DNA of 64,000 nucleotides from Oscillatoria sp. CS-180 (GTDB lineage Bacteria; Cyanobacteriota; Cyanobacteriia; Phormidesmidales; Phormidesmidaceae), in assembly GCF_028330965.1 (NCBI RefSeq), contig NZ_JAQMUB010000087.1, forward strand, positions 62,001-126,000. The letters run 5' to 3'. Of this stretch, positions 43,144 to 50,650 are shown in pieces. Position 1 is the first letter of the stretch. Every line of letters begins with the position of its first letter. The notes under the pieces were generated by a model that was not told the origin of the DNA, did not search any database, and saw only the letters and a program-made list of their open reading frames with translations. Both the position numbers and the translations under genes were made by a program.

Positions 43144-44697
43144 CTAAAGGTTGTCTTGTTGGACGCCCTGGACAATACGAGAAAGCTCCGTTTTCTCATC
43201 GACGCTGATGCGAGTGGGTGAACCACTGATGATGCGCTCTAGATTGCGGAAAGAGTCCTTAATTTCTGGTCCTTGATCCGTGATGGTGTATTCGCGAATG
43301 CCTTTATCATGCCAAGACCCTCTCATCTTGAAGACGTTGATGGCCCGTGACATTTCGCCCCGGACTTCAACGTATTGGAGCATGAGAATCGTGTCGGTAA
43401 TGGTCGAGATGTGGGACTCGGTAATGGAATGTAGCCCCATGAACTGCTCGGTGGTGTTAGTAAAAAAGCCTGTGATTTCTTCTTGCTTGGCATAGCCCGT
43501 GACACCAATAACGAACTGCCGGAAAGAACTGTTGCTGACGCCACGATCAAGAGCTGAGAGCGAGTCGATCGCAATGCGAGCAGGCTTGAACTGAGAAATT
43601 TGGGACTTAATAATCTGTAGATGATCCTCTAGTCCAGCTGATTCAGGATAGGCACAGAGAATTTTCAAGAGGCCCTGCTGCTCTAAATCTTCAAAATCAA
43701 TTCCCCAAGATGTCGCATTACGTAAGAGTTGTGCCCTGGATTCTTCGTATGCAAAGAGAATAGCCCGTTCTCCACTCAAGCAACCCGTTTGTAGAAACTT
43801 ACTGACCAAGAGCGTTTTGCCTGTTCCCGTTGCCCCCGTCGCCAGAATGATTGAATCGCGGAAAAAGCCGCCGCCGCACATTTCGTCTAAGGTTTCCACG
43901 CCGGAGGATACACGAACGTTAGAAGACCGTTGAGTCAAGCGCATCGCTCCCAATGGGAAGATATTGATGCCGTCATTCACAATTGTGAAGGGATATTCTC
44001 CCTTCATATGAGTCGTGCCACGCAGTTTTAAAATCTCAATCGTGCGACGGCGACGCTCCCCCTCCAGCACATTACGGACAATGACGACGTTGTCTGAAAC
44101 AAATTCCTCGACGCCATAGCGAGCCACAGGCCCGTATTCATCAACTCGCTCCGTGGTCATGATGGTCGTCACTCCCATTTGCTTCAGACGGGCCGCTAGC
44201 CTAAAAATTTCCCGTCTGACCACAGACGCAGCGTCGTACTGCTGAAAAACAGCCGTGACTGAATCAATCGAAACCCGCTGAGCCTTATATTTGCGAATCG
44301 CGTACTGAATCCGTTCGATTAATGCCGATAAATCAAAGCTGCCGACAACATCCTGGCCTTCAGGATCTGGAGAAGCATCCAGAATAAACATTTTTCCTTC
44401 ATCGATCAGCTTTTGTAAATCCCAGCCAAAACTCTTAGCATTTTTGATAATGTCAGAGGGAGACTCTTCGAAGGTCACGAAAACGCCAGGTTCTTCAAAA
44501 TGAATGATGCCTAAGTAGAGAAACTGGACTGCCATCAAAGTTTTGCCCGTGCCCGAAGTGCCGCTTACAAGCGTTGTTCGACCAACCGGTAAGCCTCCAT
44601 GACTAATATCGTCAAACCCTTCGATCAGGGTACGAATCTTAGCAATGCTATCGGAACGATTAATCGAGTAAGTATCGTTCTGGGAAAGTTGACTCAT
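43144..44697 (-). CDS. kaiC: Circadian clock ATPase/kinase KaiC
   Basis: A 517-residue protein with duplicated RecA-like domains CI and CII. CI has Walker A GTSGTGKT (46-53) and the catalytic glutamates in FVTFEESP (about 77-78). CII has Walker A GATGTGKT. The phosphosites S-T in ESHISTITD fall at about residues 431-432, matching Ser431/Thr432 of Synechococcus. ATPase, autokinase and autophosphatase activities drive the clock, with output to transcription through SasA and CikA. No residue expected for function is missing. It is last in the kaiA-kaiB-kaiC unit, 162 bases after kaiB. Confidence 0.98.
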   Translation of the reverse strand: MSQLSQNDTYSINRSDSIAKIRTLIEGFDDISHGGLPVGRTTLVSGTSGTGKTLMAVQFLYLGIIHFEEPGVFVTFEESPSDIIKNAKSFGWDLQKLIDEGKMFILDASPDPEGQDVVGSFDLSALIERIQYAIRKYKAQRVSIDSVTAVFQQYDAASVVRREIFRLAARLKQMGVTTIMTTERVDEYGPVARYGVEEFVSDNVVIVRNVLEGERRRRTIEILKLRGTTHMKGEYPFTIVNDGINIFPLGAMRLTQRSSNVRVSSGVETLDEMCGGGFFRDSIILATGATGTGKTLLVSKFLQTGCLSGERAILFAYEESRAQLLRNATSWGIDFEDLEQQGLLKILCAYPESAGLEDHLQIIKSQISQFKPARIAIDSLSALDRGVSNSSFRQFVIGVTGYAKQEEITGFFTNTTEQFMGLHSITESHISTITDTILMLQYVEVRGEMSRAINVFKMRGSWHDKGIREYTITDQGPEIKDSFRNLERIISGSPTRISVDEKTELSRIVQGVQQDNL

Positions 44698-44859: not shown

Positions 44860-45174
44860 TTAGTCATTTGAGTCGTCTTCACGCAACTCCTCGTACAGCA
44901 GATCCAGCCCAATGAGAACCCTTTCCCGATCAGACAAGTCACCAATGATTTTACGAACGGGGGGCGGTAAGATTTTCGCCAAAGTCGGTGTTGCCAAGAT
45001 TTTGTCCTCTTCAGCTAATTGGGGATTTTTGAGCACATCAATGACCTTCAGCGCATAGACCCCCTGAAATTCTTCTTCTAATATCTGGTTTAGCGTTTTC
45101 AAAGCCCGTACCGAGTTCGGTGTATTACCCGCTACGTATAGCTTCAACACATAGGTCTTTTTTAACGTGCTCAT
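44860..45174 (-). CDS. kaiB: Circadian clock protein KaiB
   Basis: A 104-residue protein. [40 protein letters not shown] and [20 protein letters not shown] match KaiB closely. KaiB switches fold and binds KaiC CI in the night phase, sequestering KaiA. Length agrees with standard KaiB. It lies 86 bases downstream of kaiA; a separate kaiBC promoter is possible in that interval. Confidence 0.98.
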
Positions 45175-45260: not shown

Positions 45261-46151
45261 TTAAGCCTCACGGGGAATAGAGCGGCGGTACATTTCGCAC
45301 AAATGAGCAATGACATCGATTAACGTTAGACGATAGTCCAGTAAAATCTCTTCGCTGCGACCTTCTAACTTCAACTGTTTCGAAAAGTTGTCCATCAGCT
45401 CCATGTGAACTTCCACGAGCTTGGAAACAGAAATATCTGCAAAGAACACGGTGTTCACAAAATTGTCTATTTTCTGATTCAGGGCTTCATCTTTAGCAAA
45501 GTAGCTGAGAATGATGTTTCGATAGTCAAGCCGTAGTTTTTCTAAAACTTCAGATCGCTCGGCTGGCGTTAAATGACGCAGAAAATTGTCAGGGTTTCTT
45601 TTGTAATAGACTCCGAGATATCCCAGTCGTTCTTGTAGCTTTTCAGATAGCCGCTGCTGCTGCAAACTTAACAAAAAACGGCGTGTGTCCTCCAAAGAGG
45701 GAATATTTTCTTCGCTTGAGAGCTGATTGAAAGGCAGATTGAGAAACTGACTGATCGCTCGATGGATATGGTGTTCAAGCTGAGATAAGTCAGAGCGATC
45801 TATACATATTGTTTCCTGATGATACTGGGCTAGTAGTTCATGGGTGGCATTGGGACTGAAGCGATCGCTGGCCTGAGTCTCCCCTTGAGCAGATGCATCA
45901 GACAGATCAATCACAAGCATTGGCAATAAAATGTCTTGTGATCTCAGGGTTGTCAGCAGCGCAGAAAGGGGGAGTGACAGCTCAATGACTAAGCAGTCTA
46001 CTCGATGGCGATTTTGCTCAATCCAGTGCAGAAAGGAGTCCTGGGCTTCCCCGAGGTGAACGTGGTGGGTTTGCGTATCCAGTTCAGCTGTTAGGACTTG
46101 GCTTAGCTCACGCGACTCAGCAAAACCTCCAATCAGAAATTGTGAATGCAA
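45261..46151 (-). CDS. kaiA: Circadian clock protein KaiA
   Basis: A 296-residue full-length KaiA. Residues 1-130 are the pseudo-receiver domain (FLIGGFAESRELSQVLTAEL, no phosphoacceptor aspartate expected). Residues 155-290 are the four-helix C-terminal domain (RRFLLSLQQQRLSEKLQERL, YLGVYYKRNPDNFLRHL, VSKLVEVHMELMDNFSKQLK) which binds KaiC and promotes phosphorylation. Some filamentous cyanobacteria have a shortened KaiA lacking the N-terminal domain; this one is full length. It is first in the kai cluster and divergent from the kinase-like gene. Confidence 0.97.
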   Translation of the reverse strand: MHSQFLIGGFAESRELSQVLTAELDTQTHHVHLGEAQDSFLHWIEQNRHRVDCLVIELSLPLSALLTTLRSQDILLPMLVIDLSDASAQGETQASDRFSPNATHELLAQYHQETICIDRSDLSQLEHHIHRAISQFLNLPFNQLSSEENIPSLEDTRRFLLSLQQQRLSEKLQERLGYLGVYYKRNPDNFLRHLTPAERSEVLEKLRLDYRNIILSYFAKDEALNQKIDNFVNTVFFADISVSKLVEVHMELMDNFSKQLKLEGRSEEILLDYRLTLIDVIAHLCEMYRRSIPREA

Positions 46152-46488
46152 GGGTTCAAACTCTCTAAAGAATCATAGATACGTTGCTTTTTCTGTATCC
46201 AAAAATCTCTATAACTGTTGCCATAGATAGCGTTAAAGCAACCAGCGGTAAGCGTTTCATATTGTTTCATTCTACTGCATGCGTCCTTGAGTAGAACATG
46301 GCAGCCATAACGGAGGAAGGACAGGTCTTAATTTCGGACAATTTTATACCTTAATGATTATCTATATAGATTACAGTCTGGGGATAAAGCGTTATCTTAA
46401 GCTGTGTAGACAATCTTTTGTCAATACTCAGCGCTTAGTTTTAGCCGATTGAGTCCTATAGCACCCACTCACTGAGGCGGTACAGGGT
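46152..46488. promoter_or_regulatory. Divergent promoter region between kaiA and a kinase-like gene
   Basis: A 337-base gap with no gene. It must hold the kaiA promoter on the minus strand and that of the kinase-like gene on the plus strand, and could allow co-regulation. I do not see a recognised operator. Confidence 0.4.
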
Positions 46489-48468
46489 ATGTCTTTCCCA
46501 CCGCTTTCTAGATTCATTCACTATGTCCCTGCCAGTTTGGCTTCCGATGATCCGAGTCGATGGCTAGAAAATTGCCTTACAGAAGGCCTGGATCGCCTTG
46601 TCTTAGTCAATGAGGAGCAGGCCCCTGTCAGAGTACTAACTCTGCATCAACTGTTTGATGTGGTTGATTTTTCAGTGTCTTTTTCACCGACAGCAGGAGG
46701 CTCTGAACCGGGTCGTAATCCTGTTAAGTCCATCCCTCAAAACTTGATGGAGGCGTCTACGATCAGTCTTCAAATCGTAGATATTACGGCATCTACGATC
46801 GATGTGGCCGAAAGAGTTGCCCTAGATCCGGATCTTTGCTGGGTGGTAGTTGACAAACACCAGCAGTACTTGGGCTTGCTCAATAAAACTCGTCTATTAG
46901 CAATCGTCTTTAGGGAGTTGGGGCTAGAGGATAGCAGCCGTCGTGGCAACTTGGAGACGAGCGCATCGGAAAGCAATACGGCTTTGCTCACTTATCTTGG
47001 CCATGAACTTAAAACACCATTAACGTCATTATTGGGCCTCTCAAGTCTTCTTAGGACAGGCGGTTTGGGAGAGCTTAATCCTCGACAAAACCGCTATGTC
47101 AGTTTGATTCAGCAGCATTGTCGTCGATTGGCAGCTTGGGTTAATACTCTGATCGATCTAGGCCGCATTGAGGGGGGCACCTTACGGTTAGTGCCGCAAA
47201 TGGTTGATCTGTCAAAGGTGTGGCAGGAGGCCTATCGTCAAGCGGCTTTGAGAACAGGACAAGAAAACACCTCTGCTCCATCCCTGCCTGAGATTTTGGA
47301 TTCCACCGGAGATGCGATCGCACTGGTAGCCGATCCTGCTCGGCTGCAGCAAATGTTGAGCTGTTTGATGCAAACCGTCTTAGCAATTCAATCAACGGCT
47401 CAACATTCGGCTTTGTCACTTGAGATCGATGTGCGGAAAGGTTGGATTGGATTCACGATCTCAGGGCTAGATGATTGGCTTCCGGCTGAGCAACTGTCTC
47501 AAACAACGTTGGCCTTGCCTTTTCCAGTGACGTCTGAAACATCGACATCAATTCCAGCAGAGATGGGTCATTGGCTGGAATGGCTGTTAGTTCGTAAGTT
47601 GGCCCAACAGCACCAAGGAGAATTTGTCTTATCTGTTCATCAGGATGGAAAAATCTGCCCGTCTTTAATTCTGCCAATGTCGCCGGGGTTAGCCCTAAAC
47701 ACAAATAGCCGATTTCTTTTGGTTGTTGCGCCCCCTGATAAGGATTTTCTCAAGGTTCTGTGGCAGCAAACCGACCATCTCGACTATCGTCTTTTAACAA
47801 CTCATGACCTCAAAGATGCTGTTGAAATCGCGTCTCGCTTGCCTATCAATGCGCTCTTGGTCCTAATCCACTCTCGCCAAACCATTAAAGAATTGAGATT
47901 GATGAAAACGAGTTTGAAGAAGATTGAAGGGCTGACGGTTGCTCTGGTTCCAACTCATTATTCATCTATGCTGGGCGAATTGCCTGTAGATCGAGAGAGT
48001 ATCTGGCCTACAGATAGTTTGGGAAGTATTTTGCTACAGCCGGCTACTGCTGTGCCGCCTACTAGCCGCCTCACAATTCTATATATCAAAACTTCTGAAC
48101 AGGTTGATACTAGTGACCAGCGATTTCCTCAAATCTTTCATACCTTTGGTTGCCGCGTTCTAGAAGTTGATGATTTGGAACAGGCCAGCTTGTTGCGTCG
48201 GGTCTGGCAACCTAATGTCGCTGTTTTGGATCCGGCGATCGCAAGTCCTGCCAGTTATCTTGAACGGTTGGGACAATCACCTGAATTATCTTCCCTGCCG
48301 CTAATTACATTGACCATGGCAGCGACGCAAGCGGCCCATGCGATCAACTCGCTCACTGTGTTTCCCTGTCTTGTTGCTGAATCCGCTTGGAATACCCCTG
48401 AAGCAACCGAGCGATTGACCGCCTGGCTCATTCAAGCCCTACAGCTGGCAGCAACTGACAAGAAATAG
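46489..48468 (+). CDS. Histidine kinase-like protein with degenerate ATP-binding domain and C-terminal receiver-like regions
   Basis: A 659-residue protein. Residues 85-145 resemble a CBS-like sensory unit. HisKA is clear: LLTYLGHELKTPLTSLLGLS with the phospho-histidine at residue 172, and a dimerisation helix to about 235. The next 150 residues should be HATPase_c, but the N-box reads DPARLQQMLSCLMQTVLAI without the usual asparagine. The G-box (normally DxGxG) reads ISGLDDWLPAEQL. Residues 410-650 look like two receiver-like folds without clear phosphoacceptor pockets. It may be a pseudokinase or phosphotransfer protein. Divergent from kaiA, it could be linked to clock output. Confidence 0.7.
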   Translation: MSFPPLSRFIHYVPASLASDDPSRWLENCLTEGLDRLVLVNEEQAPVRVLTLHQLFDVVDFSVSFSPTAGGSEPGRNPVKSIPQNLMEASTISLQIVDITASTIDVAERVALDPDLCWVVVDKHQQYLGLLNKTRLLAIVFRELGLEDSSRRGNLETSASESNTALLTYLGHELKTPLTSLLGLSSLLRTGGLGELNPRQNRYVSLIQQHCRRLAAWVNTLIDLGRIEGGTLRLVPQMVDLSKVWQEAYRQAALRTGQENTSAPSLPEILDSTGDAIALVADPARLQQMLSCLMQTVLAIQSTAQHSALSLEIDVRKGWIGFTISGLDDWLPAEQLSQTTLALPFPVTSETSTSIPAEMGHWLEWLLVRKLAQQHQGEFVLSVHQDGKICPSLILPMSPGLALNTNSRFLLVVAPPDKDFLKVLWQQTDHLDYRLLTTHDLKDAVEIASRLPINALLVLIHSRQTIKELRLMKTSLKKIEGLTVALVPTHYSSMLGELPVDRESIWPTDSLGSILLQPATAVPPTSRLTILYIKTSEQVDTSDQRFPQIFHTFGCRVLEVDDLEQASLLRRVWQPNVAVLDPAIASPASYLERLGQSPELSSLPLITLTMAATQAAHAINSLTVFPCLVAESAWNTPEATERLTAWLIQALQLAATDKK

Positions 48469-49747: not shown

Positions 49748-50098
49748 TTAGTTGCCAGGAGTAATACTTTCAAGCAAATCCTCAGCTTGATCGCGCACGG
49801 TCCTAGCTTCTTGGGAATTAGCAGGGTTGTTCATCTTCTCAAGATTAGCGGCCCCTTGAACTCCATTAGGACCTCTGTTTGCTTTACGCTGGATCTCCTC
49901 AGGATTGCGAGGCTCTTCCTTGACAGACTGCCTTGAAGTTTCCACCATGTCATTCATCTGAGGAACCCCTTCTCTAGGGCTGCTTGTGTCGCTACCAAAA
50001 GCAAAGGCGGGAGACGCTACGCCAAGCAGCATAACAGCACAAACCAATGCGGCGATTGCAGCACTGATGGTACGACGAAGATTATTGAAAAAACGCAT
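49748..50098 (-). CDS. Small secreted protein of unknown function
   Basis: A 116-residue protein. Residues 1-33 are a signal peptide (RRTISAAIAALVCAVMLLGV, cleavage after AFA). The mature part is polar and low complexity (VKEEPRNPEEIQRKANRGPN, NLEKMNNPANSQEARTVRDQ), probably disordered or helical. The family is not known to me. It has its own terminator and is followed upstream on the same strand by a CsbD-like gene 150 bases away. The two may be coexpressed. Stress function is inferred only by the neighbour. Confidence 0.65.
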   Translation of the reverse strand: MRFFNNLRRTISAAIAALVCAVMLLGVASPAFAFGSDTSSPREGVPQMNDMVETSRQSVKEEPRNPEEIQRKANRGPNGVQGAANLEKMNNPANSQEARTVRDQAEDLLESITPGN

Positions 50099-50248: not shown

Positions 50249-50650
50249 TTAGTTTCCAAAAAAGTCTTTGACAGATTCGACCAAGCCTTCTGCTGAATCC
50301 TTAGCAGAGTCAGCTGCGCTCTCTGCTGCCGATTGGGTTCGCCCAACGCCTTGCTTGGCTTTTCCACTAACTTGCTTAGCGATACCTTCAGCTTCGTTCT
50401 CTGCTCCACCAACCTGGCGCTGTAAGCTACCAATACCTTCCTGTACCTTGCCTTTTACCTGCTCGGTTGTTCCTGCGCCAGCCATGCGGTCAACTTCTCG
50501 TTCAGCTCTGTTTTGAACAATCTGACCCGCTTCATTCATGGCTTCGGCAGTTGGGCTCCAACCTAGTATCAGGCTCGTGAAAATTGCCAAGGACGCTAGT
50601 CCTAAACAAACTGCGCGTCGAATCCTCGATGCGATCGCTTCAATAGTCAT
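50249..50650 (-). CDS. Secreted CsbD-like stress protein
   Basis: A 133-residue protein. Residues 1-37 are a signal peptide (GLASLAIFTSLILGW, cleavage near AEA). The remainder has CsbD-like repeats: EQVKGKVQEGIGSLQRQVGG, then GIAKQVSGKAKQGVGRTQ, and a final SAADSAKDSAEGLVESVKDF. CsbD family proteins rise under general stress in many bacteria. Most are cytoplasmic, so an exported version is unusual. Likely helical and flexible. A second frame over this region (50173-50433) has no support. Confidence 0.7.
   Translation of the reverse strand: MTIEAIASRIRRAVCLGLASLAIFTSLILGWSPTAEAMNEAGQIVQNRAEREVDRMAGAGTTEQVKGKVQEGIGSLQRQVGGAENEAEGIAKQVSGKAKQGVGRTQSAAESAADSAKDSAEGLVESVKDFFGN

Follow-up and report, generated by a model that had tools for sequence, protein, structure and literature searches.

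A predicted pseudo-histidine-kinase encoded divergently from kaiA in Oscillatoria sp. CS-180

The 659-aa protein encoded next to kaiA, on the opposite strand, in the window (the whole 64-kb stretch of the Oscillatoria sp. CS-180 genome analyzed here) is, judging from its sequence and a predicted structure, a pseudo-histidine-kinase, in which the fold appears to be kept and the catalytic motifs lost, with selection detected in genus mates. By both core homology and position, it is a member of a kaiA-divergent kinase family. Sequence comparison suggests that this is an old family of hybrid kinases, often paired divergently with kaiA, in which most of the members compared carry HisKA and HATPase_c motifs; most also carry receiver-like domains, the first of which has no acceptor Asp. 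The loss of the ATP-binding motifs seems to be limited to some lineages, most of the orthologues compared being intact. Our preferred reading as a whole, put forward tentatively and with a little less than even confidence, is that of a pseudo-histidine-kinase acting via its dimerization and histidine phosphotransfer (DHp) region and its pseudo-receivers, and tied to the clock by an old linkage.

The gene next to kaiA and its family

The starts of the gene and of kaiA are 337 bases apart, and the 3 kai genes are all on the minus strand, with kaiB and kaiC behind kaiA (Table 1), confirming the divergent arrangement described in the first-pass annotation. No conserved motif was seen in the intergenic region when 10 homologous stretches were compared. 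Farther along, 2 small neighboring frames on the minus strand (49748-50098 and 50249-50650) have starts that resemble signal peptides by eye.

Table 1. Features of the kai locus of Oscillatoria sp. CS-180, in coordinates of the 64-kb window
Feature	Position	Strand	Evidence or remark
Predicted pseudo-histidine-kinase gene, 659 aa	46489..48468	+	ORF divergent from kaiA
kaiA	45261..46151	-	Pfam KaiA, E 1.7e-63
kaiB	44860..45174	-	Pfam KaiB, E 2e-30
kaiC	43144..44697	-	Pfam KaiC ATPase, E 4.8e-126
kaiA / 659-aa gene intergenic region	46152..46488	.	337 bases
N-terminal CBS-like region, residues 1-145	46489..46923	+	Weak CBS matches in homologues
HisKA (DHp), residues 164-230	46978..47178	+	Pfam PF00512, E 1.3e-14
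His172 codon, H-box HELKT	47002..47004	+	H, kinase E and phosphatase T all present
Degenerate catalytic/ATP-binding (CA) domain, residues 233-400	47185..47688	+	CA-like fold predicted; without Pfam HATPase_c
Former N-box (RLQQMLSCLMQTVLAI)	47341..47388	+	Asn lost vs intact orthologues
Former D/G1 box (WIGFTISGLDDWLP)	47443..47484	+	DxGxG lost vs intact orthologues
Former G2 box, inside IPAEMGHWLEWLLVRK	47551..47598	+	GxG lost; all 9 sequences compared have L363 and E364
Pseudo-receiver 1, residues 406-520	47704..48048	+	Without acceptor Asp
Pseudo-receiver 2, residues 524-659	48058..48465	+	D581 present; by eye, strand 1 is not followed by an acidic pair
Lone receiver gene, 154 aa	48540..49004	-	Response_reg, E 6.4e-19

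A search with the 659-aa protein recovers full-length homologues from its genus and from several family mates; at greater distance, the homologues are partial and longer. Pfam scans of 9 homologues recovered strong HATPase_c matches in 4 long ones (E 4e-21 to 2e-28), weak CBS matches in 3 (E 5e-5, 2e-4, and 0.004, the first of these barely reaching the cut-off), PAS in one, below the cut-off, and Response_reg in 5, 2 of them below the cut-off. The N-terminal region of the 659-aa protein itself has no Pfam match, and its predicted structure is partly of low confidence.

When 40 loci were fetched around kaiA alone, chosen for family spread and regardless of any homologue of the 659-aa protein, a divergent homologue stood beside kaiA in 21 and was missing from 19, one of the latter lying on a 3-kb contig. 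In the other direction, kaiA adjoined the gene in 29 of 37 named loci found by an H-box pattern, and 4 of the remaining 8 have less than 700 bases upstream; L126 and L133, in which the upstream sequence exceeds 6 kb, gave no match to KaiA above 45 bits. A profile search detected the family at E ≤ 1e-70 in at least 158 of 291 genomes and found none at that cut-off in 133, the count being a lower bound because the cut-off misses some members, those of G016 and G052 among them; KaiA was found in 260 of the 291. Among the matches listed, which are the best-scoring ones rather than a random draw, 94 genomes had both genes placed, and the gene was the divergent neighbor of kaiA in 83 of these, spanning 16 family codes (read from tables), and elsewhere in 11. 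Two of the 11 cannot be judged (G050, on a 3,055-base contig, and G032, where the contig ends 659 bases from the gene), but in G025, G031, and G201 the member lies away from kaiA on contigs long enough to show that the pair can be separated.

We compared the proteins of 36 loci whose divergent frame exceeds 450 aa (after leaving out L090, where the gene is unrelated, and short or duplicate loci); all 36 formed one cluster, partly by construction, since 14 of the loci had been fetched by homology. The 2 genes beyond the homologue recur in at most 4 of the 36 loci. None of the 20 listed KaiA-less genomes is among the 158 with a family match at E ≤ 1e-70, and the gene is present with no KaiA match in 3 genomes, G204, G269, and G287 (87, 78, and 69% complete). 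Several family mates of Oscillatoria sp. CS-180 have no copy (G006, G007, G017, G019, and G149), nor was a match at E ≤ 1e-70 obtained in the S. elongatus-type genome G034, whose best match is CikA. Absence from many KaiA-bearing genomes indicates that a KaiABC clock can work without this gene. Thus, the proposed linkage to kai in other genomes held for 83 of the 94 placed genomes among the matches listed and for 21 of the 40 kaiA loci, but does not extend to the many KaiA-bearing genomes in which the gene is missing. In a separate observation, 17 loci, mostly of Nostocales (L134, L136-L139, L141-L148, L152-L154, and L159), have a short KaiA match of about 100-170 residues with the long kinase still as divergent neighbor. 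In 3 genomes (G030:C23, i.e., L046; G248:C371; and G281:C29), the gene frame looks split or carries a stop, either through a fault in the assembly or because the gene has really been lost.

Loss of the ATP site and retention of the histidine

HisKA is the sole Pfam domain recognized in the 659-aa protein; HATPase_c was not found at E ≤ 1, so that the ATPase domain described as degenerate at the outset is not one that had merely been overlooked. The H-box reads LGHELKTP and includes His172, as first annotated. By contrast, the N-box, LLSNAL in intact orthologues, has become CLMQTV, the D-box has changed from VWDTGIG to ISGLDDW and the G2 box from GTGLGL to GHWLEW, bearing out the reported lack of the N-box asparagine and of DxGxG. 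These losses are common to 8 close homologues, which, along with the purifying selection seen in genus mates (below), makes chance an unlikely cause. We scored 72 family members for motif features, counting those with at least 3 of 4 as intact and those with 2 or fewer as degenerate: 55 retain the ATP-binding motifs and 17, including the 659-aa protein, have lost some or all of them, although Pfam still places HATPase_c above its cut-off of 26.4 bits in 2 degenerate members, L100 (31.5) and L042 (35.6). The Nostocales have the intact form and the lineage of Oscillatoria sp. CS-180 the pseudo-kinase form. On a quick tree with the CA columns left out and several long branches, motif loss needs 2 state changes, which are also forced by the well-supported branches, one in the family of Oscillatoria sp. 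CS-180 and the other in 2 members of a different family (f26). Since L100, one of these 2 members, still matches HATPase_c, the second loss is one of motif residues rather than of the domain.

The H-box histidine is retained in all 72 members compared and hence in all 17 degenerate ones; 32 of the 72 had been found via a pattern containing the H-box, and the other 40, including all 17 degenerate members, had not. Thr or Asn at H+4 is kept in 15 of the 17 degenerate members, with Ser in L035 and L042, and Glu at H+1 in 13, with Ala in L043, L044, and L086 and Ser in L120; all 4 members without this Glu retain the H+4 Thr. According to the available part of the work of Willett and Kirby, kinase activity requires the acidic residue and phosphatase activity does not, the reverse being true of the Thr/Asn (PMC3510030). 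In the accessible portion of a recent review, the histidine is described as contributing to, but not essential for, the phosphatase activity of HisKA proteins, and phosphatase activity is argued not to be a general function of pseudo-histidine-kinases (PMC12632262).

Conservation is not restricted to the histidine. Across 9 sequences, including the 659-aa protein, 38 of 73 positions of the HisKA region (160-232) are invariant, and the corresponding figures over 9 sequences are 29 of 168 for the CA-like domain and 45 of 136 for pseudo-receiver 2. In the pair L005/L050, dN/dS is 0.068 for the degenerate CA domain (at a dS of 1.4, near saturation), 0.071 for HisKA, 0.065 for pseudo-receiver 2, and 0.26 for the CBS-like N-terminal part, the fastest-evolving part of the gene. 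The CA ratio is 0.13 in L049/L050 and lies at 0.19-0.20 within the L043 group; dS was saturated, and gave no ratio, for L005/L049 and for the 659-aa gene against L002 and L031. The degenerate CA domain is thus under purifying selection in the genus mates (dN/dS about 0.07-0.13, measured there and not on the 659-aa gene). In the lineage of Oscillatoria sp. CS-180, the protein is shorter on both sides of the core, with DHp, His172, and pseudo-receiver 2 strongly conserved.

AlphaFold2 modeled the 659-aa protein with a mean pLDDT of 68 and a pTM of 0.51 from a 32-row alignment, with low confidence at residues 56-104 and in other linkers. The region annotated as degenerate was predicted to form a histidine-kinase CA-like fold and 2 receiver-like domains: DHp helices (149-189 and 198-229) are followed by a CA-like alpha/beta layer (234-400) and by the latter 2 domains. 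Residues 155-403 of the full model match the histidine kinases GacS (Z 15.0), DivL (13.9), HK853 (13.8), ThkA CA (13.8), and RetS (13.3-13.5), bearing in mind that intact orthologues in the alignment may favor a standard CA fold. Inactivity of the C-terminal receivers, proposed at first sight of the sequence, is supported by an acceptor column without Asp in pseudo-receiver 1 and by the residues of pseudo-receiver 2 (Table 1). Modeled alone, the latter reached a pLDDT of 91.5 and a pTM of 0.86 and matched mainly receivers (CheB at Z 14.2, KdpE at 12.2, and many at 11-12), as well as cobalamin-binding domains of a related fold (4r3u at 12.6 and 2yxb at 11.9); the best Foldseek E value was 8.8e-5. 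Pfam found no domain in pseudo-receiver 2 of the 659-aa protein; of 32 members, 6 had a Response_reg match. Its profile comparisons with the KaiA N-terminal domain (1.0%) and the CikA pseudo-receiver (29%) were weak, and neither structure is among the fold matches listed for it, which says nothing against such a relation. Of the family members longer than 1000 aa, many have an extra C-terminal receiver-like domain, which matches pseudo-receiver 1 in profile comparison (80.8%). In L112, L142, L099, and other long orthologues, this domain (approximately 185 aa) also gave a weak profile match to the KaiA N-terminal pseudo-receiver (58.5%).

Possible roles and partners

A phosphotransfer or scaffold role, as first suggested, is compatible with these features. 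In the reading that we prefer, the 659-aa protein would not autophosphorylate. Its dimeric DHp would instead act on a partner receiver, either as a phosphatase, the HELKT motif being complete, or by taking its phosphoryl groups. Docking and control would fall to surfaces of the pseudo-receivers and of the empty CA domain, and input to the N-terminal CBS-like part. The linkage to kaiA suggests that the protein may take part in the input or the output of the clock. Several points weigh against this reading: the retained histidine could also mean phosphorylation in trans, 2 degenerate members have Ser at H+4, 2 still match HATPase_c, the DHp specificity positions match neither CikA nor SasA of the genome, and the gene is missing from many KaiA-bearing genomes, lies away from kaiA in 11 of the 94 placed, and occurs with no KaiA match in 3.

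A pure scaffold or heterodimer modulator like Caulobacter DivL, in which DHp only dimerizes, possibly with another kinase, and no histidine chemistry takes place, seems to us rather doubtful, though not far-fetched. DHp is strongly conserved, the predicted CA-like fold has no catalytic motifs, and DivL and RetS are among its matches; DivL itself has been reported, in the part of the source available, to function without its ATPase domain or its phosphorylation residue (PMC9491836). Against this, the degenerate members keep the histidine without exception and the H+4 Thr/Asn in 15 of 17, and DivL is not known to have a histidine at the phosphorylation position.

We consider it unlikely that the gene is a neighbor of kaiA without clock function, kept in place by common regulation or because genome order is slow to change. 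Its location elsewhere in 11 of the 94 genomes among the matches listed, its absence from many KaiA-bearing genomes, the 3 genomes in which it occurs with no KaiA match, and the failure to find a shared promoter motif in 10 stretches would all fit such a view. However, the pairing recurs in 16 family codes while the genes just beyond are not retained, and none of the 20 listed KaiA-less genomes is among the 158 with the gene.

Less probable still is a phosphorelay intermediate, in which His172 would receive a phosphate in trans and hand it on, the donor being an intact kinase or, in reverse, a receiver that is already phosphorylated. The Oscillatoria sp. CS-180 genome has many other histidine kinases: 73 of its stretches match the SasA-type kinase model, a large two-component repertoire, and L239, the nearest own-genome paralogue tested in the kinase-core tree, is a complete hybrid kinase with a receiver (PAS-PAS-HisKA-HATPase-REC). 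The retained histidine also fits, but no conserved partner gene lies alongside and Pfam finds no Hpt domain. The neighboring lone receiver does have the intact pocket ascribed to it, with the DD, D, and K present by eye. No counterpart over 35 bits was found in L031 or in the 14-kb loci of the genus mates L049 and L050, and the weak matches seen elsewhere, of 59 bits at most, are to receivers that are unrelated or internal; the loci of other genus mates are too short to tell. Given its absence from L049 and L050, the lone receiver is not supported as a conserved partner of the 659-aa protein. RpaA is likewise not supported by the DHp positions that we presume to set specificity, which read TSGLL in the 659-aa protein vs TCGMT in CikA and TAIAT in SasA of the same genome.

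Continued kinase activity, through an ATP pocket so unusual that the motif comparison misses it, is highly improbable. A CA-like fold is predicted, kinase Glu173 is retained in the clade of the 659-aa protein, and Pfam recognizes HATPase_c in 2 other degenerate members, but all ATP-binding boxes of the 659-aa protein are lost together, the kinase Glu is also gone from 4 degenerate members, and the alignment behind the model contained intact orthologues. A decaying pseudogene, which the motif loss and the broken-looking frames in a few other genomes might suggest, is barely credible given the intact 659-codon frame and the invariance of 29 of 168 CA-like positions across 9 sequences, and is largely refuted for the lineage by the CA dN/dS of 0.07-0.13 in genus mates of the 659-aa gene.

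A wider proposal, which we regard as a possibility short of our preferred reading of a pseudo-histidine-kinase, is that of a third clock-associated kinase family beside SasA and CikA. This family, which faces kaiA head-to-head in roughly half of the sampled kaiA loci and is absent from the S. elongatus type, would usually be an active hybrid kinase. On 2 or more occasions it would have become a pseudo-kinase that acts solely as a phosphatase or solely as an acceptor and couples a CBS-sensed signal to the Kai oscillator or its output. The clock kinases described in cyanobacteria are SasA and CikA, largely from work on S. elongatus, and a family absent from the S. elongatus-type genome could not have been discovered by genetics there. 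Accordingly, the 659-aa protein may be a so far unstudied clock part, its relatives being apparently absent from the main clock model, and the family allows a direct test in other strains, in the Nostocales for the intact form and in the Oscillatoria sp. CS-180 lineage for the pseudo-kinase form. Loss of the kinase residues with retention of the phosphatase residues would be a natural experiment in turning a bifunctional histidine kinase into a one-way enzyme.

In the literature on clock kinases and pseudo-kinases, we found no published description of a kinase divergent from kaiA, and the available parts of a 2017 survey of clock factors name other factors but not this one (PMC5520375). Nostoc punctiforme has 12 cikA-like genes according to the accessible text of a 2025 paper (PMC12691664), one of which could belong to the family. 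Anabaena kaiA is alr2884 in the excerpt available (PMC8064755), and all2883 appears in the part seen of a 2009 table of predicted CRP sites (PMC2633013); from its number next to kaiA, our guess is that all2883 is the Anabaena orthologue. Pseudo-histidine-kinases and pseudo-receivers are known, and the kaiA-paired family is apparently undescribed in the literature searched.

Relation to known kinases

The analogy with CikA drawn in the first-pass annotation stands in outline: CikA is likewise a cyanobacterial protein with HisKA and a C-terminal pseudo-receiver, and the latter aligns over 115 columns with pseudo-receiver 1 of the long orthologues (hhalign 98.7%, or 86% for the clade of the 659-aa protein, without a generic-receiver control). 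Unlike in the 659-aa protein, the CA motifs of CikA are intact, and Pfam found no GAF domain in the 659-aa protein or the 9 homologues scanned. Identity with CikA does not hold, as the family forms a separate clade and the genome has its own CikA elsewhere (772 aa; G000:C92:42656-44572). In a quick kinase-core tree, 11 family rows formed one clade and 9 CikA rows, 2 of them identical, another; intact members were used in place of the 659-aa protein, 11 of 12 members passed the motif cut, and so did 10 of 20 own-genome stretches, including CikA and SasA. The best match in G034, a 753-aa protein, matches PDB 2j48 at 3.5e-58, an entry which we take to be the CikA pseudo-receiver; with this protein as query, 38 of 39 relatives gave a match at E ≤ 1e-60, of which the low-ranking ones may be other kinases. 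SasA is likewise a HisKA kinase tied to the Kai clock, but the 659-aa protein scores 22.2 bits against its model, NF006800 (cut-off, 342), and SasA of Oscillatoria sp. CS-180 is encoded elsewhere (G000:C32).

The best NCBIfam match of the 659-aa protein and of 2 long orthologues is to the HrmK-type hybrid kinases (NF038297), which is also the best match of L239 (422 bits, below the cut-off). At 65.5 bits against a cut-off of 725, the 659-aa protein is not HrmK, from which it differs by its pseudo-receiver architecture. DivL and a ChrS variant still signal despite lost or unusual catalysis, according to the available portion of the source (PMC9491836). Together with RetS, they share with the 659-aa protein a histidine-kinase fold with lost or unusual catalysis, but the kinship is confined to the kinase core, in other organisms and pathways, and the 659-aa protein has retained its histidine.
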